DNA of 64,000 bases from Symbiodinium sp. CCMP2592 (Eukaryota > Sar > Dinophyceae > Suessiales > Symbiodiniaceae), in NCBI GenBank assembly GCA_905221615.1, contig CAJNDT010000935.1, positions 399,908-463,907 on the forward strand, in the 5' to 3' direction. A program made the translations under genes and the position numbers. The notes beneath the pieces are model-generated. The model saw only the letters and a list, made by a program, of their open reading frames with translations. It was not told the origin of the DNA and did not search any database. How positions within the stretch are numbered: position 1 is the first letter of the stretch; every line of letters starts with the position of its first letter. This document shows, in pieces, positions 5,578 through 29,222 of the stretch.

Positions 5578-6897
5578 CGTACCAACAAAAGTTCCAAACG
5601 ATTGAAATTTCCTCAAATTCAATAGAAGTTTCGTGTGCCTCCAAAATCAAGCGGCCGATTGAAAAAAATCAAGCGGGCGTCCTCTGGGAAGGGTCGCTTC
5701 AACATCTGGGTGGCCCCGGTGGCTCTGCAGTTCGAGCGGTTCTTTGACTTCGATTTCTATGTCGGGGTCTCCGCCGTCCAGGGTCACTCACGGATGCCCG
5801 AGCGGATCTCTGATGTTGCTCTCGGGGAAAGGCTCACCTTGGAGCGATGCCGCCAGCTTGGAACGATTTTCCACGCCTCGGATAACTCCAACTACGAGAG
5901 CATCCGGGAAAACGGCTTAAAGCTGGAGGCGACGAAGGCGGCGTGGCAGCGGCACAGGAAGGCCATCCACCTCGGCGGGTGGAGTGATTTCTCCTGGGCC
6001 TGGGACCGTCATTAAGTACGGTACCTACGTCTTCTACGCCAAGCTCGATTACGAGTGCTACATGAGTCACGGCCACAATCTGTTTCTTACAGACAACGGC
6101 GTGGTGCTCTCGTACCAGGACATTCCGGCGATGTATCTCACACATCACTACCGTCCTCCTCACGAGCAAGATCCGGGTGGCATTCGCCACGAGAGGAAGC
6201 AGCAAAGCGCAGGGGTAGGCTCTTCTCAGGAAGAGGGAAGGACGAATCCATGGCATCTCTTCGCCCACGGCAAGTTGCACATGGTGGACTCCTCTGGCCA
6301 GCCGATGCTTAGCACCTATGGCGATGCCCTCGTTCAGGTCACCCCCTGGCACACTTTGACTACTTCTATGAGAGAGTCTCTGGGTGGTGAATACGATTGG
6401 GCATCGTGGTTGCAGCATCCTCTTTCGGGGTACTCCCTGCACTTCTTCCTCAAGGCCTTCGAGATGGGGAAGTTGCAGGGGAACTACCTCGTGGAGCTGG
6501 ACAAGACACCGAAGGTTTACTCCAACGGTTACACGTCACCTTGGATGAACTTTAAGCGTCATCCTGGCGGTCTTGCCCAGATGCTGGACGATGTCTCCGT
6601 TGCCGCGTCGAACGAATTCAGGCCCAACGTGGGTAACATTGGATTCGATCGCCATCGGGACAATGACTCTCGTGCAAAGATGCCAAGGACAGAGGATCCC
6701 GACTACTCTCGCAAGCTCGCCGCACACAAGGCTTTCCTCAGGGAAAGGTATGTGTAGGAAGAGGTTGGCTATGTGCGAGAGGATTTCCAGATGCTCGTCC
6801 GCGTCATCAATGAGGCTTATGGAGTGGACTTCTTCTCCTACATCCAGCGCCACGCCGGTGATCTGGAGGTTCGCCGTAAATACACGGTGCGAACCCC

Positions 6898-7068: not shown

Positions 7069-9669
7069 GTGGCGTACGAGGACTTGAAGGCGAAGAAGGA
7101 GTCTGAGCTGAATGAGCTCCTCACCCGACCATATGACGACATTATGATTGAGGAGTTCATCGAGCGACTCCCATGTCCACAGATCGAGGAGATGGAAGAG
7201 CCTCCCGCGGCTACTCAGATGGATACCTCCGAACCGTCGTCTGGATCCACGGACTTGCCACAGGGCAAGAAGGTTGATCCGGTTAAGACCGAGCCGACTG
7301 ATGTGCCAATGGAGACTGATGCTCCAGGAAGCTCTCCACAGGGAGAGGTACCTGGGGCTACTGTCGAGCCAATGGAGACCGAAGCCACGGAAAGCTCTCC
7401 ACAGGGAGAGGCATCCGAGGTGAAGGTCGAACCTGATGTGCACATGGGTCAGGAAGGAGGTAAGTCCGAGAACATCGAAAAGGCTGAGGAAGGCTCACCA
7501 CAGGGTGAGGAATCCATGCCAGACATTTCTCCCGAGAAGGATGATGAAAGTGAACGTCACGATCAAGGCATCTGGGGGAAATGCAAGACCGTTCCGGATC
7601 CTGAGTACTACCAGGCCGCGAAGGATGCAGAGGACCAGAATGAGAACGCGTTCGACAAGATGGGCAAGGCAAAGGAAAAGATCGAGCTCGTTGATCTCGA
7701 AGAGTTCAAACATTTCCTTAATCAGCTCACCGAAATCGAACGACAAAGCCCTATGCGGCTGCTCTGCAAGCAGTTGCGTGGATATGGCTATTCAGGCTTG
7801 TATCATACAGGACTTCGTGATCCTGACTACGAGCCCGTTCTCGCCTACAAGGTGCAGCATATGAGTTGGAGGGTAAATGTTCCGAACCACAAGGGACAGA
7901 AATACTCTCTCTCTATGGTGGACCTATTCGACCAACTCAACAAGATGGATCCCATCTATGAGCGTCGTCCCGACAAAAAGGACGTTGTCTTTCGTTCTGG
8001 GGACGTTCGCAGCACCTTGGACGACAAGCTCATGGGCAAGGCCTCTGACATCCGAGAATCAGCATTGGAGGTTATGGAAGCACTTCTTGATAAGCTGAAG
8101 TCCCTGGATGCAAGCGGCAATCCGGCAACTCGAGAAGAACTTTTGAATGCTATGCTTCACTACTTCTTGATCACCGGAGTCGATGAAGAGGAGATCGGGG
8201 ACCTCTCTCTTGAGAAGACGCCGAATCCTTATATTCATCGTTTTGGTCTGGCGGAGGACTCCAATGTCCCTATCTTCACCAGCAAGACCAAGTACGCCGC
8301 GCTCATCCTCAATCTCGGCAACATGAGCAGGGGAAGAAAGCGTTCCGCTCCTAGCTCCGTTGCTAATCACATTGACTGGGACGATGCTACACCATCAAAA
8401 GGAGCCTTGATAAAATCGATTGCACAGTCGAAGACGCATTTGTTTATGCTCTGCGAAGCGGCTACAATCGATGACTCCGAGGAGGCCTTCCTCAAGTCAC
8501 GCGGGTGGCAATTCCTGCGTAACGAGTCCAAGGACCTGATGGTGGGAAGTCGTACAAATGGTGTCGGATCTTCGATCACCCGTCTTGCCGGCTCCACTCT
8601 CAGTGGATATGCCCACGAGTCCCTTCCAATAACCTATATGGTCGCGGAAATCGTGTATGGCATGACGTTACCGACCGGTCTCCAGGGCAGTCGTGGTGAT
8701 TTTCCAGATGAGTCACTGACCAAGGTCTTGGAGCGAGCTGGATCCGACCGGCTCAGAGTTTGTGTCTTCCACCTCCACAATGACGCGGCGGCAGACAAGG
8801 TGGCGTTGGCTCATGAAGTGTTGGGCAACATGTTCATCGACTGCTTGCACTACCAAGTCGACCTCATCGGTGGCGACGCCAACATGGCCCTTTACCGGGC
8901 CACCGGCAGAAAGCAGGAGTCGATGGATATTCGTGGCGGGATGTACCAAAGCCTTCTCGACTACTTCTTGGAGGCCTGGTCAGAAAGCCCAAAGTGCCCA
9001 CACTTCTGTTCGCCTCGTGCGAGACATGTGTCAGCAAACGCCATGTGGCTTCTGAAACAGTACGAGGACACGCTGGGAATGCCATACAAGGAAGCTAAGC
9101 AACCAGACTGGAATACCTTTCCTGGTTTGGATCCTGTTATGGCTACAGTCATGGAATGGGGACACAGCATGTCGGACGAGCAATGGGCGGAGTTTCCGTC
9201 TTCAAAGAATGAGTTCGACATCCATGTCTCTGAGTGGCTGTTAAACTCCACCAGCGCCGCGTACCTTCTCAACGATCGGGACTATGACGCTCACACTCCG
9301 CTCCTCATCGAGGTTCACGCGAACCAGTACTCTGGAGGCAGGATTAGAGCGCTCAACCGCAATCCCGACACCGTGAAGGAAGCCGCGGACAGAAGAAAAG
9401 AGAGACAGAAGCTGAACAAGGCGCGTGGTTCTGGTTCTACTGGTCCTGCAGCCGCACCACAGGGAGCAAGCTCTTCTCAGGAAGAGGCAGCTTCTGGTGC
9501 TAAAGCTTCTGGTTCTCAACGTCCTCAAGAACCCGCACAACCTCCTGGTGGCAAGGAAGGCGGCAAAGGAGGCAAGTCCTCCAAAGGAAAAGGCAAGGAC
9601 GCCGACAAGGGCAAGTCCAAGGGCAAGACCAAGGACAAGTCCAAAGGCAAGGCCAAGGGCAAAAACTGA
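7069..9669 (+). CDS. Long ORF with EEP (endonuclease/exonuclease/phosphatase)-like region
   Basis: 866 codons from a GTG-position start; no ATG precedes it in frame after the duplication, so it is best seen as the downstream part of the broken gene at 5635-9918. Residues 1-170 are acidic with four SPQGE-type repeats (SSPQGEVPG, SSPQGEASE, GSPQGEESM). The central part contains NLGNM, a CEAATIDD segment, HLHNDAAADK and DLIGGDANMALYR. This order resembles EEP-fold nucleases, where Glu, Asn/His and GDxN residues form the metal site. The C-terminus is Gly/Lys-rich (KSKGKTKDKSKGK). I see no reverse transcriptase nearby, so a LINE assignment is not supported. The EEP reading is moderately confident; substrate is unknown. 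Confidence 0.5.
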   Translation: MAYEDLKAKKESELNELLTRPYDDIMIEEFIERLPCPQIEEMEEPPAATQMDTSEPSSGSTDLPQGKKVDPVKTEPTDVPMETDAPGSSPQGEVPGATVEPMETEATESSPQGEASEVKVEPDVHMGQEGGKSENIEKAEEGSPQGEESMPDISPEKDDESERHDQGIWGKCKTVPDPEYYQAAKDAEDQNENAFDKMGKAKEKIELVDLEEFKHFLNQLTEIERQSPMRLLCKQLRGYGYSGLYHTGLRDPDYEPVLAYKVQHMSWRVNVPNHKGQKYSLSMVDLFDQLNKMDPIYERRPDKKDVVFRSGDVRSTLDDKLMGKASDIRESALEVMEALLDKLKSLDASGNPATREELLNAMLHYFLITGVDEEEIGDLSLEKTPNPYIHRFGLAEDSNVPIFTSKTKYAALILNLGNMSRGRKRSAPSSVANHIDWDDATPSKGALIKSIAQSKTHLFMLCEAATIDDSEEAFLKSRGWQFLRNESKDLMVGSRTNGVGSSITRLAGSTLSGYAHESLPITYMVAEIVYGMTLPTGLQGSRGDFPDESLTKVLERAGSDRLRVCVFHLHNDAAADKVALAHEVLGNMFIDCLHYQVDLIGGDANMALYRATGRKQESMDIRGGMYQSLLDYFLEAWSESPKCPHFCSPRARHVSANAMWLLKQYEDTLGMPYKEAKQPDWNTFPGLDPVMATVMEWGHSMSDEQWAEFPSSKNEFDIHVSEWLLNSTSAAYLLNDRDYDAHTPLLIEVHANQYSGGRIRALNRNPDTVKEAADRRKERQKLNKARGSGSTGPAAAPQGASSSQEEAASGAKASGSQRPQEPAQPPGGKEGGKGGKSSKGKGKDADKGKSKGKTKDKSKGKAKGKN

Positions 9670-15893: not shown

Positions 15894-16890
15894 ATCCCCA
15901 AACCCGACTATATAGTAAGGTCCTCTGTCAGCTGGAACACTCCTGAAGCTATAGCACCATGCTGAGGTTCCTGCAGGATCTCGTCCTCAGGACCTCTCTT
16001 TGCCTGGCTTTGGGGGCTGAGGATCATTTCGGGTTTAGGTGGTTGGGCTTAATGAGGGCTTAGGGTTCAGGGTTTACCGTTGGGTTTAGGGTTTGATTCG
16101 CCACCAAGGTGCATGCACAGGCGTCCCCCTGAGCCACACACATTCACAACAAGCCCCGAAACCGAAACCTTGAACGCCGTGGTCCTGAAAACCTGATGAC
16201 ACATGTAATGTATCAACCGAGCACTTCATTGTCGCAAACCGATGATCGCATAGATAAATCCCTCAGCCGTAAACCTCGAGACCGCTGAGCCCTTAACCAT
16301 ATTTGCAATACGAGCACATTTGAAGCCCTAGCAAGTACTACATGCTTTTGTTGCATCTTCTTCTTTGATCCTTGTAGTAGCTCGTACTGGAATAACTTGA
16401 GACCCTAGAAGCAAACACCACGCACCCAACGCTGTTCAGGAGCTTCTTCGGAACTTGGCGAGACAACGGCTGGTTCAAGATGTCCAGGACAGCTGATTTG
16501 TTTTAGACACCTTTTTGAGGGTTTAGGGTTTGGAATTTGTCGCACAAACGCCGTCAATAGAATCCTCTCCAAGGTTTGATAGGGGCTTGAGCGTTGTTTT
16601 GGGTGCTGTGGGTACTTCTCAAGGGTGCTTGAACAATTTTGTAGGTCGCTTAGTACCTCAAAAACCCAACAGCACATCACATCCGATCTCTTGATACATG
16701 AAGATGAGGCGTATTTACACTCCCTCACACTCCTCCAATAATTTCTGAAGTTCAAAGTGCAGAAGCCCCACGACTAAGGGTTCAGGATTTTCATAAGCCT
16801 TCGTAATTATTGTCTTCTGTGCCCCTATAACCCAGAATGTTCAAAGTCTAAGAATCCCTAAAACCCTAAAACCTCAACCCGAATTCCTAT

Positions 16891-17054
16891 TGTGAAATTT
16901 CCCTGTCTTGAAGCGCCGTGTTGACATGTCCTCATGCGTGGATAGTTTTTGAGACAGTTCTGAACGCACCCTGTACGACAGACGTCTTGGGCTCAGACCA
17001 AAAAGTGCGCTCGTTGTGTGGTTGGACACTCACTAATCCAGTTCCTCCTTCAAA
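16891..17054 (+). repeat. 5' LTR (164 bp)
   Basis: Starts TGTGAAATTTCCCTG and ends CCTTCAAA. The boundary is fixed by the CCTAT duplication and by the adjacent primer-binding site. The 3' terminus is AA, not the usual CA. It presumably holds the promoter, but I see no clear TATA box; dinoflagellates often lack one. Confidence 0.95.
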
Positions 17055-17055
17055 C

Positions 17056-17067
17056 TGGTAGCGGAGC
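17056..17067 (+). other. Primer-binding site
   Basis: TGGTAGCGGAGC begins one base after the 5' LTR. TGG at this position is complementary to a tRNA CCA end, and TGGTAGC resembles the Ty1 site that pairs with initiator Met-tRNA. Which tRNA of this organism ends in GCTCCGCTACCA cannot be decided here. Confidence 0.7.
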
Positions 17068-17172
17068 TGTGAGGACAACCACTAGTGTTTCACCCCCGTA
17101 GAGCCTGTGGTCCGGGGTCCGTTGGGTAGAGTAGTGATAGTCGCGGCGCAAAGGCCCCTTCTATCTGAAGCC

Positions 17173-20100
17173 ATGAGCGTGGCAGGTTTGCGTTACCAGC
17201 CCAATCTCTGGTCACAGAACCTGAGCCCTGCAGAAACGAAAAGCGGTTCGTACATATACGACGGTACGGCTGCTGGCTTCCACGATTGGTGCTTCCGGAC
17301 ACAGATCCGTGTGCTGCAACATAAGGAGAAGCAGCGGCGAGAAGCTCTTAAGGACCTGCGATTTGCCGAGTCGGCAAGGGCCAAGAGCGAGTCACCAAGG
17401 AAGTGGCGTGGCAGGGCAAGTCAGGGGACCAGCGCATCGCCCACAGATGGGGATGGAAGCAGCGGTATACCCGCCAGTCCGTCCAGCGCAAAACGGACTA
17501 AGCCCGCGTCCGAGGCAGAAGATGAGGATGCGGAGTCGTTGCCGTCGCACCCCAGCCAAGTGGCGGGCGACGATGAGCAGGAGCCGGACACAGATCCGGC
17601 GGTGTACACCTTGCAAGACATTAAGGACGAGTCGCTTGATATGAGCGAATGCGTTAGCAAGATTTTGGAGGGTCTCCGAGGAGACGCCTTTTGCATCGCT
17701 CGCGACGTCGGCCTGGAACGTCTGCTACGCCATGATGGCGTCGACTACCTGATAGAAGAAATCAGGAGGCAAGCTTTCCCTCTTCAATCTGAAGAGGCGT
17801 CCGAACTTTTTCGTCAGGGACAGCTCCTGACGGGCCCACTCGCAAAGCAGCCCGGCGAGCCTATGTTGTCTTACATAGCCCGCCGAAAGCGGTGGTGGTC
17901 GACCTTGCGTGAGCTGGATCCTGATATTCGCCTTTCTGAAGCAATGAGGGCTAACCTCCTTGTTGAGCTTTCAGGGTTGGAAAGGAACGAACAGCTAATG
18001 GTCAAGACCGCTGCCCGCGTACACACCGTGGATGAGTACGCACGCGTCCTTGTTCAGCATCACTCAGTGGTGCATATGAAGGAACGTCTTCTTACCCAGA
18101 AGGACCCTAGTGGCCCAGGTAAGACCTGGAGACGTTTCGACGCTAAGCCGCAGTACCCTAAGTTTGGTTACATGGGGTATGATGGTAGTGCCGCAGAGTA
18201 TGGTCACCAGGAACAGCAGGAATCCGCGGAAGGCTACGGTGACGGCTACGGCGAGGAAGCATACCAGGCCACAGCGTCTGGGGGAGATGATGCGGATGAA
18301 TGGATTGATGATGAAGACCTAGCATTGCAACTCAACGCCTATACGGCAGTGGCATATGAAGCTGAGATTGACGATCTGGATGATTCCTATGCCGAGTCAG
18401 TTCAGCTTGCGTACGCGGCACAGACCGCCTTTGCCCAGGCAAAAGGGAAAGGAAAAGGGAAGAACAAGGGCAAGTCCTCCGGAAAATCCGGTGGGAAGGT
18501 CGTGCGTAGCAATTTGACTATTGCTGATCGTAAGGCCAAGTTGGCAGAGCTTAAGGCAAAAAGTAGGTGCCTGAAGTGCGGTGTGATCGGCCATTGGGCC
18601 GGAGATGCTGCCTGCAAGTTTAGCGGTAAGGGCAATGGCCCCAAGGGCACCACAACTCCAGCACAGTCTGGGGGAACTGCCAACGCAGCCGCAAAGCCGG
18701 CGGCGCCGAAGCCCCAGGCGTATTTCGCCGCAGTGGAGGAGGATGACGACACAGAGTGTGTCCACCTGTCGAATGCGAGCGCTGGTAGGCTCGAGGGTTA
18801 CCCAGCCAACCTTGAGCTGACTCCCTCAAGGACCAATACCGGCAAAGGCCGCGGCAATGAACCCCTCTTCTCACCGCAGCTTCGGCGCACAGCCGCCGCT
18901 AGGATCATGCGTGATAGCCCGCCTGAGGGTTCCGATCGCGTTTTCTCCTTTGGTCAGCATAAGGGTCTGACTTATGAGCGTGTTTTGTATACGTTTCCTG
19001 GATATGTTCTTTGGGGACGCACGCAGAAGTGCCCATCCATAAATTTGGCCGATTTCTTGGATTGGGTCACGGAGTACTTTGATGTGCGTGATGACAACCC
19101 CATTAGCATTACGAGAAGGGATGTCCCTCTCAGCCAGGAGCCCCCGCCTGAACCCTTTCAGCCCGAGGTTCGCCTCGCCGCGTCAGCTGCTTCGTCCAGC
19201 GAAGGCCCCCGGAAATGCCGGGGAGGTTGCAAGGAGTTCAACAAGTCGGGGAGTAACGCATACATAGACATGCGGACCTGTAAGAAATGCGGCACCGTCA
19301 CCAAGACGAAGAAAGAGAAGCCTGTCATAGACCAGGCCACATGCCCCCACACCTCCACCGAGAGGTCGGGTAGCAGTAGGAAGACCTCCCGCATTAAGTG
19401 CAAGCTTTGTGGGATGCTTCTAGATGAGCAGCCGCAGACCGAGCGAAAGGCTAGGGATGACGCAGCCACAGTGCTGCGGGAGTCCAACACCCTGGACTTC
19501 GATCTTCTGCGCAGCATAGTCGGCAGCACGGGGGACAGCCTCCCCGTAGAGGTAGTAGTTCCGGCTATTGCCCAGTTTCAAGAGACCATAGAGGGTCATT
19601 TCGTAACCGAGCCCGTGATATCTCGCGGTGACCTTCTCGCATACCTGCAAGAGGCCTTAGATGATCACTCTGCGTCATCGACCAACAACAGTTGGGAAGT
19701 GGCGTCGGCGAGATCGCGCTCCTCGAGGGCCTCCGCGACGAGGCACGCCTTCGTGGCTTTCACTGAGGGGGTCACAGATATCCATCCGGCTTTGGTTGAT
19801 TTGCCCGTAGTAAATATCTACGAGGATAAGCACGTATACGCCGTGTTGGATGAGGGCTGTAACTCGACTGTTCACGGTAGCGATTGGATAGCAAACGCGG
19901 CGGGGAAACTTGCGAACTTCGGTTACAGCACGAGGTTTAAACCTGAGGGCAATCGTACCTTCAAGGGTCTTAGCGGTGCTACCGAAACCCTGGGTAGCAG
20001 GACCATACCTTTCTCTATAATGGGATTGGAGCAGGACTTGAGAGTTCCGGGCGTCCTTGATTCTCACGAGATTAAGGGTACAGCCCCTCTCCTTTTGTCC

Positions 20101-23100
20101 CTTTACGCCCAGGCCCAACTTGGTATAACCAAGGATCTTCGGTTTGGCGAGTGTGGTGTTCGACTTCCTTCTGAGGATAGCATCATTAGGATCAAGCTGT
20201 GTCGGACACATGACTCAGGGCTGTTATGCATAAACATAACAGAAGGTTTGGTTCAGGTGAAGCAACCCCGTCTCATAAGAAGCTTCCAAATTCCCTCACC
20301 GCCAGTTCCTATATTTAGGTCTGCCGCCGCCGCCGCCTTAGCTCACTCAGAGTCTGTGAGCACCCCTCGAGATGCAACAGCGGCAGATGACGCAGTGGCA
20401 ACAAGTCGCAGTCACAGTACTGTAGATGCAGGCCATGGTCATAGCACTTTAGGCGTAGGCCACGGTCACAGCTTCACAACCACAGCTGAGAATCGCAACA
20501 ACACTAAGCGACGTATAAGCGTAGCGTTCCCGAATCATTGTATGGTAGGCACGTCCGTAGGAGACACGGAGCCCGCCGCGATGGCCGCAGAGGAGGGGCA
20601 GCTGCCTAAGAAGGCGCCCCCGACGGCAAAGGCTGCACCGAAGATTTCAGCAGCGCCGGAGCCTGGCCACAGTGCCATGGCGATTTCGCCAGCGGTCGGC
20701 CACAGTGCCGCACCGGCAGGAGGTACCTTTTCTGCGCCTGCACCTAAGGCGCCGCCAGGTAGTGGCTTGCCGAAGAAAGCGCCTCCCACAGAGAAGGCTA
20801 GGCCTGGGGATAGCCCAGGGAACCCGCCGGCAGCTCGTGCCACAGTGCACCCGAAGGAGATCGCGCGAGGGCACCGCGAGCTTGCCGAGTTCGATGCGGT
20901 TGTGAAGAAGGACCCGCACAACAGGCCCCTGGTTATAATGGCAGGTGGTGGACCCCATGGTCCGGAGCTCGACACTCCTCTTCCAGCAACCGTGTATAAT
21001 CCGGATTTGGCATTGCAGCCGTTCTATGCGGGGGACACAGCGAACCCGGACATCATTATTGATGTTTTTACCTGGGGCTATGAGCACCATGCCTGGCTGC
21101 AACGCGTCAGAGGGAAGTGGACGGCGGCCGAGCTCTTCGCACAGCACGAAGAGATGGAAACGCATGCTCTCACGACGTATGCGAGTGCCACTAGCTATAT
21201 GCTAGTGATGTTGGACATGGTGTGGCTCAGGGACGATCGGAAAGACGATCTGACGCCAGCAGAAGCCCAACAGCGCAACGACGAACAGCGCGACCGCACA
21301 AAGCATGTTGGGTCGAATCCCGATATAATTCGGGAGCACGTGGACCACCCTAACCTGATCGCCCACGTCAGGCACATCGTGGCGAACGTCCTTGACGCTA
21401 AGGACGCTGGGATCAGGTCCATAGCCGTGCACGTGGTTTGCAAAGCCAACAGACATAGATCTGTTGCGGCGGGCATCCTTGCCCATGCAGCGCTTTTGGA
21501 GCTCGTGCCAGACTGCTCCGTCAGCCTCACTCACATGAGTGCAGCGAATAGTTGGCCCTTCATGGGCAGCAGAGCGTGCAAAGGACAGTGTCCCAAGTGT
21601 TTGCACCGCGCCCCTGGCATAGCCCAGGAGGTCCAAGACCTCACGAGGAATTTCGTCGATGCTGTCCGCACAGACGGACCAGAGGATAACGAGTGCATCC
21701 TTGTCGTGGAGCCGCAGTGTGCACGCCCCGATGATCAGCCTACATATGCTGAGCGGTTTCATGCGCAGATGCTTGCAGAGGGCCGCATACCGGCACCGGT
21801 GACAGGGGTAGGCCCCCTTGATAGGCCTCCCATGGCAGGCGAGACCGCGTATCAGGCTGCACAACGCATGGGGCTGGTCGGCAAGACACATACATCGTAT
21901 GTGGCAAAGTACGACCCGAACTCGCTCACTGCGGCGATGAACCGCGCACAGGGCACAGCCCCTGGAGGACGCCTACCTTCGGTTACTTTTAGCTCGGGTT
22001 CTAACCCTGCTAACCCTGCTAGTTCTAGTGTAGGTGCGTCAGCCAAGGGCGGAGCGGCCCCCATAGAGAGGCCGAAGGCTACGCCAGCACCGCCGCCGGC
22101 AAAGTCCGGTGGGGCACAGGACCGCGCAGCGACGCCGACAGGGTCGTCGGCTCGGATTCGCAAGCTCGAGGCTGAGGTCCACGACCTCACTGATGCGAAT
22201 CGCTGCCAGGAAAGCACTATAAGTGACTTGAGAGAAGCCCTCAGCAACGTGAAGCGGCAGCGCGATAATGCGTATGATCGGCTGCAGGACATGCGTGAGA
22301 GGGCAGAAGACGCGGAGACTCGAGCCGATAGGGCCGAGGCGGAGCTCAAGAGGCTTACTCGCCGCTCCCGATCGCGTCGCAGGCGGAGGGATAGTTCCTC
22401 CTCGAGCAGGGGTCATCGCCGAGACCGTACCCGTGAGAGACGGCGGATGGACTCCAGACCTCGGGATAGGTCCGAGGCTCCGACGCGCCAGCGCACCTCC
22501 CGTTGGGGTCGCGTCCGCGACCCAGGTGATCGTGCGGATCGGGACACAGTTCCCGAGCCAGAACGCACTCGTGCCGCAGGCCGGGACACAGCTCCCGAGC
22601 GTGACCGCACGAATCCTCGCCCCACTGCACGGCCGGAGGTGGTTGTCGAGCCCGACAAAGGCAAGGGCAAAGGCAAGGTGGCACCGCACAGCGTGTATGA
22701 TGAGGTCGAGTACGACGACGGCACAGGTGCGGGAGACTGGGATCCACCGGGACCCAGGACCAACCTCGGCAGCAGGCGCCCGCCTGAGCCGCCGGAGCCA
22801 CCGCGCTTCCGAGGCAGTGCTGGTTACAATAGGTTTCCAGAGCGTGAGAATCCTCACCGCCCCATGACGGCCAGAGAGTCATGGTGGTATTTCCACGGCG
22901 ATAGGCCGTCGGACGAGTGGAACGACGCGGAATGGGCAGAATTCCGTCGTCAGTTTCCGAAGCCCCCAGGGCAAGGCAAGCTCGTCGAAATCGACGAGAA
23001 GATCCTGGCCATCGACGTTGGTGCCATCGCACTCAGCCCCGACATAGGTTTCGGGTGGAACAGGCGCATCGTGTTTCAGGACTTTCCTGATGGTGTGCTG

Positions 23101-24798
23101 ACTGACCTATATGAGGTCATGCGCGAGAAGCAGGCGCCAGCGTGCTGGATCGGTCCATATGCACCGAGACGTTTCTGGGCTGGTGATAAAAATCACCACG
23201 AACTCAGCGAGCGGCACAACATAAAGTGCACAGTGGTCACCCGCCACACAGGCCGTTCGTATAAGCCGACGGGCAAGCTACGGGACATAGATCCCATAGG
23301 ATATTTGTTTTCCCACCTGGATCCCGCCGACGGCTCCAGCTGGACGTATGAAGGCGCATGCTTTCCGCCGGGGTCAGACTCCGAGAAGCTGCCCACCGAA
23401 ACCGGTGGAGCCGAGCAAGCATGCCCGACGCAAGAACCGTCGGAGGATGGGGCGTACGTCGCGCTTTGGGTGTTTCCCTTGGCGTTTGACGCGGCCACAG
23501 TGCCCCACCAGATCGAGGACACAGATGCCTTGAGTGCAGTGTACATCCCGGGCACAGACCCGCGGGCTTCGCGCATCGCCTCCTCTGCCGGCCCGGGCAC
23601 AGCCCCGGAGGGTGAAGTTTCACCCATGGATGAGGACGGAGCAGAGCGCGAAGCATACATGGCCGTCTGCAGTGGGGAGTGGGTAGGACAAGCCAGCCAG
23701 ATTTCTTTTCCAAGCCCTGATCCTCCCGAAGACCTGCCCCACAGTAGCAGCGCAGCCTATGGGCCCTCAGCCGCTAGCTTAAAGAAGCTTAGCAAGGCCC
23801 AGTCCAAGTACCTCACCTCAAGCCTTACCGAAATGGTAGCGGGAGACAAAGTCTTAAAGGCAATCGTGTACAACGCTGCCATGCGAGAAGCTGATCACCT
23901 GATTAGATTGCATGAACCCTCGGCACAGGTCCTCGCGAGCGTGATCAACGAGAGGCAGAACGGGCCACCGGGCCTCGTGGTTGCCAGGTTTGAGACTTCC
24001 ACAGAGGAGTTGTGTTTGGAGCTTGAGTGTGTAGCTGACACCCTCAACATTCCAGTTATATTGGTTACCCCGAACGGCTACCCAATGCTTGAGGACACTG
24101 TTACCTTGAGAGGAGACATGCATATCTCAGGCATAGGCCCAGAGATCGGAAAGGCTTTGGACTCCTTCCAAGCATGGTCAGAGTCTTACGGATATATACC
24201 CCGTAGTTATGTTGATACGGATAGTACTGACTTTTGGAACCTTTGTCGTACCATTTCTGAGGAGTACTATATCAACGCGTTTAGCCGAACTTGCTTTGTC
24301 GGCGACGCCCAGGACACAGATCCTGAGGACATCAGCGAAGCAGAGCTGGTGCCCGATGCTGAGATGCCTCAGCGAGGTGCCCCTGATGGGGTGGATGATG
24401 CCGGTGGCGCACTGACGCCCGAGGAAAGAGAACGCCTCATTTTGGAACAATTCCCGTTCCCCGGAACGCCGAATACAGAGGCAGAGCGCCGAGCGGCGTG
24501 GAGATCGTTACCGCAACGAGTCCGGGTAGCTATAAGGCGCCTGCACCGATCGTTTGGCCATCTGCCAAATGCAGTCCTGGTTCAGGTCCTGAAGCAGGCC
24601 CGGGCGAGCAAGGATTTCATCGCCGCTGCCGGACTTTACAAGTGTAAGGTCTGCCTGGACACAGCTCCAGTGCCCAGGCATCACCCTGTCGCAGGCGATA
24701 GTGTATTCCCCAAGGAGTTCAACCATACGATAGGTATGGATGCGCTAGAGGTCAAAGACTTCTATGGGAAATCGCTATACTGCTGTCAATATAGTTGA
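17173..24798 (+). CDS. Retrotransposon ORF1: Gag, protease, accessory domains, integrase N-part
   Basis: 2541 codons from the first ATG, 118 bp after the LTR; the frame is open further up to 17107 without an ATG. Regions by residue: Gag-like helix-rich 1-440; KGKGKNKGK linker; zinc knuckle C466-x2-C469-x4-H474-x6-C481; ExoX-C-like VFSFGQHKGLTYERVLYTFP near 590-620; paired Cys motifs C682/C686, C703/C706 and C743/C746; aspartic-protease-like LDEGCNSTVHG with D893; Pro/Ala/His-rich linker; RapZ-C-like about 1250-1460 with CKANRHRSV at 1423-1431; coiled coil about 1660-1730 then an Arg/Ser-rich stretch; two unassigned blocks near 1940-2050 and 2210-2370; pre-integrase zinc H2458, H2463, C2491, C2494; first integrase Asp D2523. 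It ends in CCQYS after the frame slips near 24769-24775. Confidence 0.9.
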   Translation: MSVAGLRYQPNLWSQNLSPAETKSGSYIYDGTAAGFHDWCFRTQIRVLQHKEKQRREALKDLRFAESARAKSESPRKWRGRASQGTSASPTDGDGSSGIPASPSSAKRTKPASEAEDEDAESLPSHPSQVAGDDEQEPDTDPAVYTLQDIKDESLDMSECVSKILEGLRGDAFCIARDVGLERLLRHDGVDYLIEEIRRQAFPLQSEEASELFRQGQLLTGPLAKQPGEPMLSYIARRKRWWSTLRELDPDIRLSEAMRANLLVELSGLERNEQLMVKTAARVHTVDEYARVLVQHHSVVHMKERLLTQKDPSGPGKTWRRFDAKPQYPKFGYMGYDGSAAEYGHQEQQESAEGYGDGYGEEAYQATASGGDDADEWIDDEDLALQLNAYTAVAYEAEIDDLDDSYAESVQLAYAAQTAFAQAKGKGKGKNKGKSSGKSGGKVVRSNLTIADRKAKLAELKAKSRCLKCGVIGHWAGDAACKFSGKGNGPKGTTTPAQSGGTANAAAKPAAPKPQAYFAAVEEDDDTECVHLSNASAGRLEGYPANLELTPSRTNTGKGRGNEPLFSPQLRRTAAARIMRDSPPEGSDRVFSFGQHKGLTYERVLYTFPGYVLWGRTQKCPSINLADFLDWVTEYFDVRDDNPISITRRDVPLSQEPPPEPFQPEVRLAASAASSSEGPRKCRGGCKEFNKSGSNAYIDMRTCKKCGTVTKTKKEKPVIDQATCPHTSTERSGSSRKTSRIKCKLCGMLLDEQPQTERKARDDAATVLRESNTLDFDLLRSIVGSTGDSLPVEVVVPAIAQFQETIEGHFVTEPVISRGDLLAYLQEALDDHSASSTNNSWEVASARSRSSRASATRHAFVAFTEGVTDIHPALVDLPVVNIYEDKHVYAVLDEGCNSTVHGSDWIANAAGKLANFGYSTRFKPEGNRTFKGLSGATETLGSRTIPFSIMGLEQDLRVPGVLDSHEIKGTAPLLLSLYAQAQLGITKDLRFGECGVRLPSEDSIIRIKLCRTHDSGLLCINITEGLVQVKQPRLIRSFQIPSPPVPIFRSAAAAALAHSESVSTPRDATAADDAVATSRSHSTVDAGHGHSTLGVGHGHSFTTTAENRNNTKRRISVAFPNHCMVGTSVGDTEPAAMAAEEGQLPKKAPPTAKAAPKISAAPEPGHSAMAISPAVGHSAAPAGGTFSAPAPKAPPGSGLPKKAPPTEKARPGDSPGNPPAARATVHPKEIARGHRELAEFDAVVKKDPHNRPLVIMAGGGPHGPELDTPLPATVYNPDLALQPFYAGDTANPDIIIDVFTWGYEHHAWLQRVRGKWTAAELFAQHEEMETHALTTYASATSYMLVMLDMVWLRDDRKDDLTPAEAQQRNDEQRDRTKHVGSNPDIIREHVDHPNLIAHVRHIVANVLDAKDAGIRSIAVHVVCKANRHRSVAAGILAHAALLELVPDCSVSLTHMSAANSWPFMGSRACKGQCPKCLHRAPGIAQEVQDLTRNFVDAVRTDGPEDNECILVVEPQCARPDDQPTYAERFHAQMLAEGRIPAPVTGVGPLDRPPMAGETAYQAAQRMGLVGKTHTSYVAKYDPNSLTAAMNRAQGTAPGGRLPSVTFSSGSNPANPASSSVGASAKGGAAPIERPKATPAPPPAKSGGAQDRAATPTGSSARIRKLEAEVHDLTDANRCQESTISDLREALSNVKRQRDNAYDRLQDMRERAEDAETRADRAEAELKRLTRRSRSRRRRRDSSSSSRGHRRDRTRERRRMDSRPRDRSEAPTRQRTSRWGRVRDPGDRADRDTVPEPERTRAAGRDTAPERDRTNPRPTARPEVVVEPDKGKGKGKVAPHSVYDEVEYDDGTGAGDWDPPGPRTNLGSRRPPEPPEPPRFRGSAGYNRFPERENPHRPMTARESWWYFHGDRPSDEWNDAEWAEFRRQFPKPPGQGKLVEIDEKILAIDVGAIALSPDIGFGWNRRIVFQDFPDGVLTDLYEVMREKQAPACWIGPYAPRRFWAGDKNHHELSERHNIKCTVVTRHTGRSYKPTGKLRDIDPIGYLFSHLDPADGSSWTYEGACFPPGSDSEKLPTETGGAEQACPTQEPSEDGAYVALWVFPLAFDAATVPHQIEDTDALSAVYIPGTDPRASRIASSAGPGTAPEGEVSPMDEDGAEREAYMAVCSGEWVGQASQISFPSPDPPEDLPHSSSAAYGPSAASLKKLSKAQSKYLTSSLTEMVAGDKVLKAIVYNAAMREADHLIRLHEPSAQVLASVINERQNGPPGLVVARFETSTEELCLELECVADTLNIPVILVTPNGYPMLEDTVTLRGDMHISGIGPEIGKALDSFQAWSESYGYIPRSYVDTDSTDFWNLCRTISEEYYINAFSRTCFVGDAQDTDPEDISEAELVPDAEMPQRGAPDGVDDAGGALTPEERERLILEQFPFPGTPNTEAERRAAWRSLPQRVRVAIRRLHRSFGHLPNAVLVQVLKQARASKDFIAAAGLYKCKVCLDTAPVPRHHPVAGDSVFPKEFNHTIGMDALEVKDFYGKSLYCCQYS

Positions 24799-27700
24799 CA
24801 TGGGGACAAGCTTCCAGCAAGTTGTGCTCGTGAAATCTGGGGGTGGTAACCCAAGTGCCCGCCAGTGTGTGAAATGCCTGATCGACAGGTGGATCAGCTG
24901 GGCTGGACATCCCAAAGTCATAACCACTGACAGAGGGACGCACTTCAGGGGAGAATTTTCAGAGTATTTGGCACAGCATGGTATAATCCATAAAAACGCC
25001 CCCCTTGAGAGCCCGCAGACTATTGGAAAGGTTGAACGTCATGGTGGACTTGCTAAGGCCATCATCAGGAAAGTCGCGCAGGAGGCTCAACCCTCGAATA
25101 TCGAGGAGATGGAGGCGGTCGTTACCGAAAGTGTTACTACTAAGAACGAGCTTAGTAGGCACCAAGGGTTTAGCCCGGCACAACACGTGTTGGGAAAGCA
25201 GCCTCGAACGCCGGGTTCAGTGCTAGATGAATCCGAAAGCCTTGGTACATTGTTCACCAAGTATGATGAGACGAGTGTATACTACATTCGGCACAGAGCA
25301 CGGCAGGAAGCCAAAAAGGCCTTTGTGCACTTAGAGACTTCCCGCAAAGTGGCCAAAGCGTTACAGCGTAATGCAGCCCCTCTAGACACTGACTATAAGG
25401 TTGGTGATTTAGTTATTTACCGTCGGGATAACGTCCCTGGCAGCCCAGGTGTCGTGTGGTCCACGGTTAGCCGCGTCATAGGACGTGAGGCAGAGAATGC
25501 GTACTGGGTATTACACGAGAATATCCCTGTACTTGTGAACGCTAGGAAGATGCGTCCGGCTGATGAAATTGAAGTTGCAGCGCATCGCGTTTTGGCAGGA
25601 GAACCAGTGCTTCCGGAAGCCATTGTTCATGGACCGGAACAAAGGTTCCAGGATGAGCGCGTAGCAGATCCGGTCACAGCACCAGCGACGCCACGTCCAG
25701 TGGCTGCAGCTGCCCCGCTTACACCGGCAGTCGCGCACGATGTGTCTATGCCAGCACCATCGACGCCAGCGATGATGCCCGGCACACCGATGCCAGTGCC
25801 ATCCACGCCTGCAAGGTTTCGCGCCAAAGATAAGACGGGCGAAACCGCCCGGTCGCGATCACCAGTAGGAGGCCGTGATGATGCACTAGTTGCGGAAGAG
25901 ATTGATCAAGTAGAGATCATGGCAAAAGGCCTGATAGATACTCAGGGTTTTTCCCCGGATGAGTGTCTGGCCCTCCTTCGTGCTTATGACCGCGACCGAC
26001 GCGAGGCTTACACGCGTCCGCTCCTAGATGATGGAGATCCCGGATGCATAGCCCTCGCGGTGGGAGTATATCGGCACGGTGGTCTTGTTGGAGTTTCTGG
26101 ACCAACGCGCGAGAGACCGTCGTTTGCCATGTACCTCAACCACTATATCTTGCATCACAGTATGCAAGCCGGTCATCACCTCCCACAGTGGAGTAGCGTT
26201 CAGCTTACCAACAGAGGCGCAGAGGCCCATAGAGACCTAGCGAACACTCCTGGCTCGCATAACTACACTATAGGTGTGGGCGAGTATCGTGGAGGCGGTC
26301 TATGGGTGGAAGAAGCCACGGGTACAACCCCCGTGCGTGTTCAAAACACGACAATGTATGGCACCGTCCACGATACTAAGAACAAGGTTCTTAAGTTTCG
26401 CCCGAAGGACGTGCACATGGTCGCACCGTATGTAGGAGAACGATACAGTCTCTCCGCATACACGGTGAGTGATCTCGGCAAGTTGTCTAAAGATGACATA
26501 CAGCTTTTGTCGGACTTAGGCTACCCCATATATAGGGATGCGCCCAATGCCTTTGGCAGGAAAGGTGATGGGATATACACCATGGGTCACTCTGATCTTC
26601 CCATCGAGACGTTTCTAGAACGCATCCACGAGTACGGGATTAAGGAAATCATAGATTGCAGAAGCCATCCGTACAGCGTTCGGCATCCACAATACAATTG
26701 CGATGAGCTTTCCGCCACGTGCTTTGCAAAAGGAGTTGTGTACAGTCACGCCCCCGAGTTAGGCAATAGGAATCGGGGCGGGATTGAGGCCAACCTGCAA
26801 ACAGACCAAGGGCTCTGTACGATCGCTAGAATAATTAGCGAGGCCCACGATGACTTCCACCGAATACTTCTGTTGTGTTCGGAGGCCAGTTGGCGGCGAT
26901 GCCATAGGCGAAATATCGCCCAGCACATATGGCTCGAGCATTCGAAACTTGCCGAGCACATACGTGCCAATGGACTGCCAGAAGCCCATCCGTGTCACTA
27001 TCTCCCTGAGGAAGACGACGGACTGGCAGCAGCATCGCACACAGCTGCGATTGGCACGACTGTGCCAGCAGCTGAGCCCTCGGATAGTCGAGTGGCGGAA
27101 TCCAAGGCCTTTGCTCTCACCCCAGATGGGGAAGACGCCATCGGCTCTAATGTCGACGCTGGCTACATGGCCTCGCTCCTGGATTACCACAAAGCCCCTG
27201 TCGAAGTTCAGCTAGGGTTGGATGCTGCCATGAAAACTGAATGGCAGAAGTACACTGAATTCAACGCAGTGGTTCCTTGCACAGACAAGGAGTTCAAGGA
27301 GCTCACAAAGGCTGGCCACGTGTGTATTCCCACCAAATGGGTCCTCACCGATAAGAATGAACACCTAAAGGGGACGCCGGCATACACTCCCAAGTGGAAA
27401 GCACGCTTGGTCGCATGTGGAAACTTCGAGCATATCTCGAATGAGGAGGATATCAGGGCAGACAGCCCCACGGCTGAGCCGGAAGGCATAGCCCTTCTGT
27501 GTTCATGGGCGGTTTCATTGGCCCTGCGGCTCAAAGCAGCCGATATAACGAACGCATACTTCCAAGGGAAACCCCTTGAGCGCCTTCTCATTCTTCGGGT
27601 TCCTAAACACCCTAAGGGTGTACCCGATGCAGAGATTCAGCGAGCCGGGCATATGATTGCCCGAGTACCCGTATATGGTACGACCGACGCGGGTCGGAAC

Positions 27701-28891
27701 CTTTATCTCCGCATAAAGGAGAGTGCCCGCGAATTTGGCTTAAATGCCTCGCAAATTCTGTCAGCCCTGTACTATATTACAGGAGAAGGTGGTCGTTTGT
27801 GTGCTTGCTTGTGCACCCACGTGGATGATTTCCTGTGGGCTGCTACCGCCGAAGGCGAGCCGGCTATCCAGAATCTGCTGGATAAGTTTAAGATCGGTCG
27901 CATAGAGACTGAGAAGTTCCGTTTCTGCGGACGCGAGTATGTGCAAAGCGCCGATGGGACCATCAGTATAAACTGTAGGGACAACACGCGTGCAATTCGC
28001 CCGATCGATATACATAAGTCTGAAAAGGGCACGACTCCAGTCTCGAATGGCCAGCGCACAGCGCTGAGATCCGTCATAGGATCGCTGGCTTGGGTGGCTC
28101 GCGCCACGAGACCTGATCTTGCCTATAGGGTGAATGCCCTGCAGCAGCGTGTTACGACAGCCACGGTGGATACACTCCGTGAAGCAAACCGCGTAGTAGC
28201 ACTGGCGTTAGGAGATGCGGATAGGCCGATCACGTACAGCGCTAAGTTACCCTGGAATACAGGAGAGCTGGCGATTGTCACGTTTTGCGACGCCTCCTTT
28301 GCAGGAGAGGCAAACCATAAGTCGCAGAGAGGTCGTTTCCACTACCTCACTTCCGCACAGTCGGCGGTGGACAAGAACGCGTCAACGCATGAGATGCACC
28401 TCATTTCGTTTTCCTCGTCCACCATGAAGCGGGTTTGTCGCGCCACACTCCAGTGTGAGGCTTACTCGTTGCAACATGCGATAGAGCATGGAGACCGCAT
28501 TCGAGCAGCAGTGCTCGAACTGCTCGGCAAACTGCCCCGGTCACAGAACTGGGAAGAAGTCGCCAAGAGATCGATGTTCCACCTGCAGTATACGGACTGC
28601 AGGTCCCTTTCGGATCACTTGACTGCGTCGATTCCAAAATCATGCGAGGATAAACGCCTTGCCATAGAGATGTCTGGACTCCGCCAAGGACTTTGGGAAG
28701 AGGACGAGCTAACGCACGCCTTGTACCATCCTTACGGCGACGAGTTGAGATGGATACCGACGCATTTACAACTTGCGGATTGTTTGACCAAGAGTATGAA
28801 ACCGCTTTTGATCAATCACAGCATTGACCGCAATCTCGTTCAGGTGCTCGATGTGCCCGCGCAAGCCGCACAGAATGTCGAGAGTACCTAA
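24764..28891 (+). CDS. Retrotransposon ORF2: integrase C-part, 2OG dioxygenase-like, DUF488, RT, RNase H
   Basis: 1375 codons, in the +1 frame relative to ORF1 and overlapping it by 35 bp. The ATG at 24764 is probably not a true start, because the integrase fold continues across the junction. Integrase: D56 (TTDRGTHF) and E91 (GKVERHG), 34 residues apart. Pro/Ala-rich linker about 290-385. 2OG-Fe(II) dioxygenase-like region about 420-585 with H489-R-D491, distal H551 and R560 (GERYSL). DUF488-like region about 604-735 with MGHSDLPIETF, IIDCRSHPYS (D631-R633), LLLCSEASWRRCHR (C705, C713-H714-R715). Reverse transcriptase about 800-1130 with catalytic D927 (DITNAYFQG) and HVDD (D1021, D1022). 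RNase H D1176, E1232, D1278, D1339. All catalytic residues I can locate are intact. Confidence 0.92.
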   Translation: MGNRYTAVNIVDMGTSFQQVVLVKSGGGNPSARQCVKCLIDRWISWAGHPKVITTDRGTHFRGEFSEYLAQHGIIHKNAPLESPQTIGKVERHGGLAKAIIRKVAQEAQPSNIEEMEAVVTESVTTKNELSRHQGFSPAQHVLGKQPRTPGSVLDESESLGTLFTKYDETSVYYIRHRARQEAKKAFVHLETSRKVAKALQRNAAPLDTDYKVGDLVIYRRDNVPGSPGVVWSTVSRVIGREAENAYWVLHENIPVLVNARKMRPADEIEVAAHRVLAGEPVLPEAIVHGPEQRFQDERVADPVTAPATPRPVAAAAPLTPAVAHDVSMPAPSTPAMMPGTPMPVPSTPARFRAKDKTGETARSRSPVGGRDDALVAEEIDQVEIMAKGLIDTQGFSPDECLALLRAYDRDRREAYTRPLLDDGDPGCIALAVGVYRHGGLVGVSGPTRERPSFAMYLNHYILHHSMQAGHHLPQWSSVQLTNRGAEAHRDLANTPGSHNYTIGVGEYRGGGLWVEEATGTTPVRVQNTTMYGTVHDTKNKVLKFRPKDVHMVAPYVGERYSLSAYTVSDLGKLSKDDIQLLSDLGYPIYRDAPNAFGRKGDGIYTMGHSDLPIETFLERIHEYGIKEIIDCRSHPYSVRHPQYNCDELSATCFAKGVVYSHAPELGNRNRGGIEANLQTDQGLCTIARIISEAHDDFHRILLLCSEASWRRCHRRNIAQHIWLEHSKLAEHIRANGLPEAHPCHYLPEEDDGLAAASHTAAIGTTVPAAEPSDSRVAESKAFALTPDGEDAIGSNVDAGYMASLLDYHKAPVEVQLGLDAAMKTEWQKYTEFNAVVPCTDKEFKELTKAGHVCIPTKWVLTDKNEHLKGTPAYTPKWKARLVACGNFEHISNEEDIRADSPTAEPEGIALLCSWAVSLALRLKAADITNAYFQGKPLERLLILRVPKHPKGVPDAEIQRAGHMIARVPVYGTTDAGRNLYLRIKESAREFGLNASQILSALYYITGEGGRLCACLCTHVDDFLWAATAEGEPAIQNLLDKFKIGRIETEKFRFCGREYVQSADGTISINCRDNTRAIRPIDIHKSEKGTTPVSNGQRTALRSVIGSLAWVARATRPDLAYRVNALQQRVTTATVDTLREANRVVALALGDADRPITYSAKLPWNTGELAIVTFCDASFAGEANHKSQRGRFHYLTSAQSAVDKNASTHEMHLISFSSSTMKRVCRATLQCEAYSLQHAIEHGDRIRAAVLELLGKLPRSQNWEEVAKRSMFHLQYTDCRSLSDHLTASIPKSCEDKRLAIEMSGLRQGLWEEDELTHALYHPYGDELRWIPTHLQLADCLTKSMKPLLINHSIDRNLVQVLDVPAQAAQNVEST

Positions 28892-29053
28892 AGCACTCCG
28901 CTTTATGATCGAAGAACTCAGCCTGGAGCCTTGAGTCGCCGCACTCGGCTCGGTTGACTGCGCAAGCTCCCGGTATAATCCGGTGGAGTAGGCTTGGCCC
29001 AAAGTGGTCATAATTAGAGCATGATTCGGACGTCACACTACAGATAAGACGGG

Positions 29054-29217
29054 TGTGAAATTTCCCTGTCTTGAAGCGCCGTGTTGACATGTCCTCATGC
29101 GTGGATAGTTTTTGAGACAGTTCTGAACGCACCCTGTACGACAGACGTCTTGGGCTCAGACCAAAAAGTGCGCTCGTTGTGTGGTTGGACACTCACTAAT
29201 CCAGTTCCTGCTTCAAA
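29054..29217 (+). repeat. 3' LTR (164 bp)
   Basis: Identical to the 5' LTR except G for C at 29210. It is preceded by a weak polypurine stretch (AAGACGGG, 29046-29053, interrupted by C) and followed by the CCTAT duplication. Confidence 0.95.
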
Positions 29218-29222
29218 CCTAT

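Follow-up and report, generated by a model that had tools for sequence, protein, structure and literature searches.

Diverged copia-type retrotransposons of a Symbiodinium genome encode a conserved, TET/JBP-like dioxygenase domain

Which enzymes does a long copia-type retrotransposon of Symbiodinium sp. CCMP2592 carry besides its replication machinery, and what might they do for it? The element lies at 16886..29222 of a 64,000-nucleotide stretch (contig CAJNDT010000935.1, positions 399,908 to 463,907; hereafter the window, which denotes the whole stretch analyzed). An initial annotation, made from the sequence without database searches, had it as a single element that captured regions resembling ExoX-C, RapZ-C, a 2-oxoglutarate (2OG)-Fe(II) dioxygenase, and DUF488 and that might thereby modify its own nucleic acid or evade host silencing. 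We found the dioxygenase domain in the second open reading frame (ORF2) to be genuine. Its Fe- and 2OG-binding residues are retained in deeply diverged relatives, and it recurs in other retroelements of the genome. We give an even chance to the reading that the window holds a young copia copy with a TET/JBP-like 2OG oxygenase in Pol, which would oxidize bases, most likely thymine, of the element's DNA.

The identity of the window's dioxygenase was established through its relatives rather than through a Pfam match of its own. A profile built from 24 2OG domains, with the window's own left out, recovered ORF2 residues 431 to 589 at an E value of ∼1e-38, whereas 0 of 201 controls (200 shuffles and one reversal) matched at E <=10. 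H489, D491, N494, and H551 (ORF2 numbering) are invariant in 31 of 31 aligned, diverged domains, and R560 is kept in 30, being replaced by Lys in locus L036; the 24 domains compared for identity share 24 to 38% with the window's. The window's domain also aligns, with an invariant HxD...H...R pattern, with those of two proteins that combine RVT_2 with a 30 to 34% identical domain, P0003 and P0001 (the latter a "Copia protein" from Symbiodinium microadriaticum); Pfam does not annotate the domain there above its cut-off. Unlike in the window element, Pfam finds no DUF488 in these two proteins, and the P0001 domain precedes the integrase. The domain is very probably a catalytically competent 2OG enzyme.

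Pfam matches of 25 family members indicated which 2OG enzymes the family resembles. Tet_JBP was matched by 10 members at E <=1 (best, 6.6e-4) and 2OG-FeII_Oxy_3 by four at the same threshold (best, 3.4e-6). A genome-wide Tet_JBP search, in which the best 150 of 155 candidates were scored, returned four matches at E <=1e-3, all in open frames of 1231 to 1283 amino acids (aa). The HxD...H...R pattern is common to the family and to TET/JBP dioxygenases, and the relative scoring best against the latter (E = 2.5e-7) has HRD-x-HN as in TET2. Because the curated Tet_JBP score was not reached, we describe the family as TET/JBP-like rather than as part of TET/JBP (PF12851); unlike TET/JBP enzymes, it is embedded in a retroelement polyprotein. 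Action on DNA or RNA bases is somewhat probable. A substrate other than DNA, namely RNA (element RNA or primer tRNA) or protein, is suggested by the matches to the non-nucleic-acid families 2OG-FeII_Oxy_3 (4/25) and Asp_Arg_Hydrox (2/25), but Tet_JBP is matched by more members and, in its best-scoring one, at 2.5e-7; we regard such a substrate as unlikely. Fungal KDZ elements are linked to TET/JBP genes and likewise tie a mobile element to such an oxygenase, but they are DNA transposons, not long terminal repeat (LTR) retrotransposons.

The dioxygenase is not the cargo of one element, as had been supposed, but is common to copia lineages that are only distantly related within this genome. When the genome was searched with the domains of P0003 and P0001, the best 150 of 4874 and the best 150 of 4025 candidates were scored, with identities of 28 to 96% and 30 to 51%, respectively; these counts are lower bounds, and many of the places found lie in open frames of 2000 to 4900 aa. 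With 51% as the highest identity to the P0001 domain, the genome is that of a species other than S. microadriaticum. Retroelement sequence was present in the same frame in all seven domain-picked loci whose flanks were read. Specifically, RVT_2 scores above its cut-off in frame with the 2OG domain in L033, L035, and L036, and an integrase lies upstream of that domain in all three (rve E = 0.0011 in L033, by eye in the others). L034 resembles L033 but loses its frame within the reverse transcriptase (RT) by eye, L063 has an RT downstream of the domain (tblastn, 8e-39), and in L064 an integrase, recognized by eye, follows the domain, in the order seen in P0001. In the opposite direction, six loci (L057 to L062) chosen by eye from 129 RT places, with long frames and absent from both dioxygenase lists, all carry a 2OG domain upstream of the RT (E = 4e-29 to 9e-47). 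By eye, an integrase-like stretch precedes this domain, of which L060 and L061 show the C-terminal part only.

The domain thus occupies two positions, before the integrase (P0001 and L064) or between integrase and RT (window, L033, L035, L036, and L057 to L062), which suggests shuffling or several captures. In a domain tree, the window's sequence groups with P0001 and L048 to L053 (87/82, under the tool's mark for strong support), and in both P0001 and the L053 locus the domain precedes the integrase. Across six lineages, RT distances and dioxygenase distances were uncorrelated in an uninformative Mantel test (r = 0.02, with 361 of 720 permutations as high). One old capture followed by shuffling is possible, as are several captures.

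A second retroelement type, non-copia by its RT, seems to carry the domain as well. One of four such places returned by the Tet_JBP search was read (G000:C485:46700-52100, combining L065 711-3200 with L066 3-1358), and it contains a single retroelement-like frame of 1283 aa. Its 2OG domain belongs to the window's family (2e-35) and is the best scorer mentioned above, matching Tet_JBP with 30.5 bits over profile positions 73 to 162 of 164, under the cut-off of 34.9; the TET2-like HRD-x-HN was read from its alignment. Downstream of the oxygenase, FSG and PPC motifs look cytosine-methyltransferase-like by eye, and Pfam finds no such domain there; an RT-like region (RVT_1 E = 0.0029, under cut-off) and, by eye, an RNase H-like end follow. 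If real, the oxygenase and the methyltransferase-like segment would be a fused DNA-modifying pair.

Selection was assessed by the ratio of nonsynonymous to synonymous substitution rates (dN/dS) between 13 young copies of the window's family, the window included, and four older ones; L024 was left out, and L028, L031, and L032 were dropped. The dioxygenase is under purifying selection of a strength near that on the RT, with ratios of 0.07 (bootstrap, 0.02 to 0.13) and 0.05 (0.01 to 0.10), respectively. The ratios were 0.04 for DUF488, 0.06 for RNase H, 0.04 for the integrase core, 0.10 for the region labeled RapZ-C, 0.02 for the ExoX-C-like stretch, and 0.06 (0 to 0.38) for the zinc segment. 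Comparison with the deeper subfamily members L009 and L010 gave 0.08 and 0.04 for the dioxygenase, 0.04 and 0.04 for the RT, and 0.04 for DUF488 with L009 (saturated with L010). Among young pairs, DUF488 was at 0.04 and both RT and RNase H were at 0.01. In three old-old pairs with few changes, the zinc segment reached 0.41, the coiled-coil and arginine/serine (RS)-rich stretch 0.66, and one linker 0.71. Two more segments of ORF1, 22852-23376 (dN/dS, 0.09) and 23752-24306 (0.12), are constrained and have no convincing family match. The synonymous rate between old and young copies ranges from 0.05 to 0.39 along window positions 18928-28813, a variation that may come from recombination between subfamilies or from RNA constraint.

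As part of Pol, the oxygenase would accompany RT and integrase to the cDNA and to the site of insertion, so that the DNA nearest to it as a substrate would be either freshly made cDNA or the target site. Thymine is favored as the substrate because fresh cDNA carries no 5-methylcytosine; its conversion there to 5-hydroxymethyluracil (5-hmU) would leave a copy that resembles host DNA and is hence protected or tolerated. Dinoflagellate DNA has 5-hmU in place of 12 to 70% of its thymine, and the part of that review available to us describes the base in general terms as "likely conveyed" by TET-family enzymes (PMC6723414); a TET-like enzyme of Naegleria, according to the accessible text, acts on thymine too (PMC12344493). 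The sections of the 2024 mapping paper that we could consult name no enzyme making dinoflagellate 5-hmU (PMC11071213). They describe 5-hmU in Breviolum minutum as enriched over most repeats, some long interspersed nuclear elements being excepted, and accessibility as low over Copia and Mavericks. We give thymine in DNA as the main substrate less than even odds, although self-modification from thymine to 5-hmU would be the likeliest single function. The earlier suggestion that the element might modify its own nucleic acid is strengthened, for the dioxygenase, by the kept residues, the TET/JBP affinity, and the purifying selection.

Alternatively, the oxygenase might counter silencing by oxidizing 5-methylcytosine laid by the host on element copies or target DNA, thereby relieving CG methylation. 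The TET-type affinity of the family would suit this role, as would the mostly CG-methylated state of Symbiodinium genomes described in the portion seen of PMC5890265, but an enzyme embedded in Pol would presumably act first on fresh cDNA, which is free of 5-methylcytosine. We consider this role improbable.

Several observations weigh against thymine oxidation by a TET/JBP-like enzyme. The window's domain, scanned alone, matched no Pfam family, and other 2OG families are matched by its relatives: Asp_Arg_Hydrox by two of the 25 members (E = 0.0042), and among three RT-picked domains, 2OG-FeII_Oxy_3 by L058 (0.0034), 2OG-FeII_Oxy_5 by L062 (0.08), and none by L057. No domain genome-wide reached the curated Tet_JBP cut-off of 34.9 bits (best, 30.5 in L065), and the same search found no canonical host TET/JBP gene, although an intron-split gene may be missed. 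Matches in the PDB are weak: the best were CcTet for the 2OG profile (E = 0.73) and human TET2 for the L065 domain (E = 0.068), the window's domain gave chance-level sequence matches only (E = 0.11 and 0.2), and an AlphaFold model of dioxygenase plus DUF488 from seven sequences (predicted local distance difference test [pLDDT], 41.6) was too poor to be searched for the double-stranded beta-helix that typifies the 2OG superfamily. In B. minutum, the consulted part of the mapping paper places the highest 5-hmU over Mavericks, not copia (PMC11071213). The dioxygenase is somewhat less constrained than the RT in young pairs (0.05 versus 0.01), and most linkers are constrained too (0.05 to 0.28, young versus older); constraint thus covers most of the polyprotein and alone does not single out the accessory domains. 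Such constraint throughout the polyprotein, linkers included, would also suit a noncatalytic, structural domain kept for folding or binding. This is highly unlikely, since H, D, N, and H are fixed in the 31 diverged domains while most other columns vary.

Retroelements with DNA-modifying enzymes are known; new is an oxygenase in Pol across diverged copia lineages. Dinoflagellates and charophytes have retrotransposons whose coding region likewise includes a DNA-modifying enzyme, a DNA methyltransferase (DNMT), for which the text available to us proposes methylation of the dinoflagellate element's own DNA (de Mendoza et al. 2018, PMC5890265). That enzyme is a cytosine methyltransferase and, in the same portion of the paper, Symbiodinium Copia elements are without it, whereas the window element has an oxygenase in copia Pol. 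A 2025 paper, as far as its accessible part goes, places DNMT3 in both Copia and DIRS elements (PMC12344493). The open-access literature that we searched, with subscription papers mostly outside its reach, describes no dioxygenase in a retrotransposon of dinoflagellates or of the copia type and no DUF488 with a retrotransposon. That dinoflagellate retroelements encode DNA-modifying enzymes is an idea known from DNMTs, and the present family broadens it to include oxygenases. Being constrained, catalytically conserved, and TET/JBP-like, this family is a concrete candidate for the origin of dinoflagellate 5-hmU. A bolder version, in which these retroelement oxygenases are the dinoflagellate thymine hydroxylases and copia-type and related elements write 5-hmU on their own DNA, supplying by their numbers the genome-wide base, is in our estimate speculative and unlikely to hold. 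If true, it would connect the size of the genome with its repeat load and with how much 5-hmU it contains.

The element that houses the window's domain is a Ty1/copia LTR retrotransposon, as its LTR pair with a short target-site duplication, RVT_2, and integrase-RT order attest. The previously reported boundaries proved exact, as did the LTR identity of 163/164. Its features are as follows.

16886..16890, no strand: left target-site duplication, CCTAT (read from the sequence)
16891..17054, plus strand: 5′ LTR, 164 bp, with a single mismatch to the 3′ LTR
17056..17069, plus strand: candidate primer binding site TGGTAGCGGAGCTG (read from the sequence), presumably akin to initiator-tRNA sites
17107..24798, plus strand: ORF1, 2563 aa, Gag through the start of integrase
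18568..18615, plus strand: Gag CCHC knuckle (motif)
18928..19092, plus strand: weak ExoX-C-like stretch (E = 0.027 to 0.063, under cut-off; dN/dS, 0.02)
19204..19431, plus strand: weak, Cys-rich zinc-ribbon-like segment (best E = 0.0018, under cut-off)
19792..20226, plus strand: retropepsin-like protease region with the motif VLDEGC, which we take to be of the DxG type (DEG)
20875..21666, plus strand: conserved region called RapZ-C by the initial annotation, with an invariant C-x5-R-S
22147..22506, plus strand: coiled coil and RS-rich stretch (from the sequence; coiled-coil-type Pfam matches at E = 0.11 to 0.41)
24487..24765, plus strand: integrase HHCC zinc finger and first catalytic Asp, within ORF1 (motif)
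24764..28891, plus strand: ORF2, 1375 aa, remainder of integrase through RNase H
24800..25303, plus strand: remaining integrase core (rve E = 4.8e-4, under cut-off; PDB integrases from E = 0.0048)
26051..26533, plus strand: 2OG-Fe(II) dioxygenase domain, TET/JBP-like (ORF2 H489, D491, H551, and R560)
26603..26923, plus strand: DUF488 domain (E = 3.3e-14 when scanned alone)
27314..28036, plus strand: RT, RVT_2 (E = 7.6e-12)
28256..28813, plus strand: RNase H region with the Asp motif FCDAS (no Pfam match)
29054..29217, plus strand: 3′ LTR, 164 bp
29218..29222, no strand: right target-site duplication, CCTAT (read from the sequence)

ORF1 and ORF2 are the sole plus-strand ORFs of >200 aa inside the element. 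RVT_2 passed its curated Pfam cut-off (45.8 against 31.6 bits in the whole-protein scan), and the motifs that we take to mark Gag, protease, integrase, RT, and RNase H appear in the order CCHC, DEG, HHCC, integrase D/D/E, RT VDD, and RNase H Asp. Integrase D/D/E lies upstream of RT, as the Ty1/copia order requires. A Pfam scan of the protease stretch (window 19690-20224) gave no match, nor did a sequence comparison of ORF1 with the PDB at E <=1.

Sister copies were sought in the source genome (1.098 Gb in 5383 contigs). The best 97 of 4564 candidates were scored and are 96 to 100% identical over 433 aa; because 23 of these 97 have a single open frame of 3920 to 3939 aa, the normal product of the family is one Gag-Pol polyprotein. 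The two-ORF layout is peculiar to the window copy, in which the frame switches inside integrase: the first catalytic Asp lies at the end of ORF1, and ORF2 encodes the remaining two residues of the catalytic set. The claim that the cargo has not decayed thus holds for the domains, which are intact, but not for the Pol of this copy, a young, frame-broken member of a multicopy copia-type family. Most aligned relatives keep all regions, and 19 of 21 sequences have no in-frame stop in the scored regions (one in L031 and 12 in L032, whose alignment ends near 26931). The broken copies are L010, with stops in integrase and dioxygenase and loss of H551, and L032; in L030, ∼80 nt are missing from the zinc segment, and in L029, ∼310 nt from the region labeled RapZ-C. 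That region may be dispensable, since DUF488 of L029 remains in a 3822-aa open frame. The check on related copies proposed with the initial annotation thus came out mostly in its favor.

DUF488 (PF04343) was confirmed as annotated, with 54 bits against a curated cut-off of 22.2 when scanned alone; in the whole-protein scan, it also passed the cut-off (E = 6.8e-12). It scores well above the family cut-off but, unlike known DUF488 proteins, sits inside a retrotransposon polyprotein. Its distribution points to an addition that looks particular to the window element's own family. In a genome search, the best 150 of 165 candidates were scored and all passed the cut-off, and all nine DUF488-picked loci that were compared (L009 to L012 and L028 to L032) are relatives of the window element. 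Two ENA sequences with 66 to 79% identity (P0010 and P0012) have the dioxygenase end followed by DUF488, and Pfam found no DUF488 in the partial frames of L033, L035, and L036. The domain had no sequence match in the PDB, and the accessible parts of PMC12704722 and PMC9674854 give no function for the family.

The other accessory assignments fared less well. RapZ-C (PF22740) scored 16.4 bits against a cut-off of 27 (E = 0.25 in the whole protein and 0.01 alone), and the unrelated DUF1579 scored better on that region (E = 0.0049). NCBIfam gave no match to it, PHROGs only E >=0.15, and the PDB a single match at E = 3.9; a homologue search had 0 matches among 742 candidates, and an AlphaFold model from one sequence (pLDDT, 38.4) was too poor for a fold search. 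Its invariant C-x5-R-S presumably resembles phosphatase loops. ExoX-C (PF20600) reached at best 14.3 bits against a cut-off of 26.5, with E values of 0.063 and 0.027 over 15 to 21 of 30 profile positions, and the counterpart of this stretch in P0001 matches QSregVF_b (E = 0.0022, under its cut-off). As for the zinc ribbons, Cys pairs are visible, but no Pfam profile passed its cut-off. With the dioxygenase and DUF488 both real and constrained, one might still picture a single element that captured ExoX-C, RapZ-C, dioxygenase, and DUF488 as a modification or anti-silencing system. We judge this very improbable, as RapZ-C is unsupported, ExoX-C is under its cut-off, and the spread of the dioxygenase over distant lineages already refutes part of it.

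Outside the element, three ORFs without significant Pfam matches were recorded at 7069-9669 (plus strand, 866 aa), 3074-3925 (minus strand, 283 aa), and 5984-6757 (plus strand, 257 aa). Inside it, an antisense ORF of 272 aa (22039-22857, minus strand) overlaps the RS/linker part of ORF1 and is probably an effect of composition. Among viral contigs, 52 pattern matches were obtained, none of them confirmed. Finally, spliced leaders identify the host as a dinoflagellate: the 21-base sequence that we take to be the dinoflagellate spliced-leader motif has 429 exact matches in the genome and 0 when reversed.

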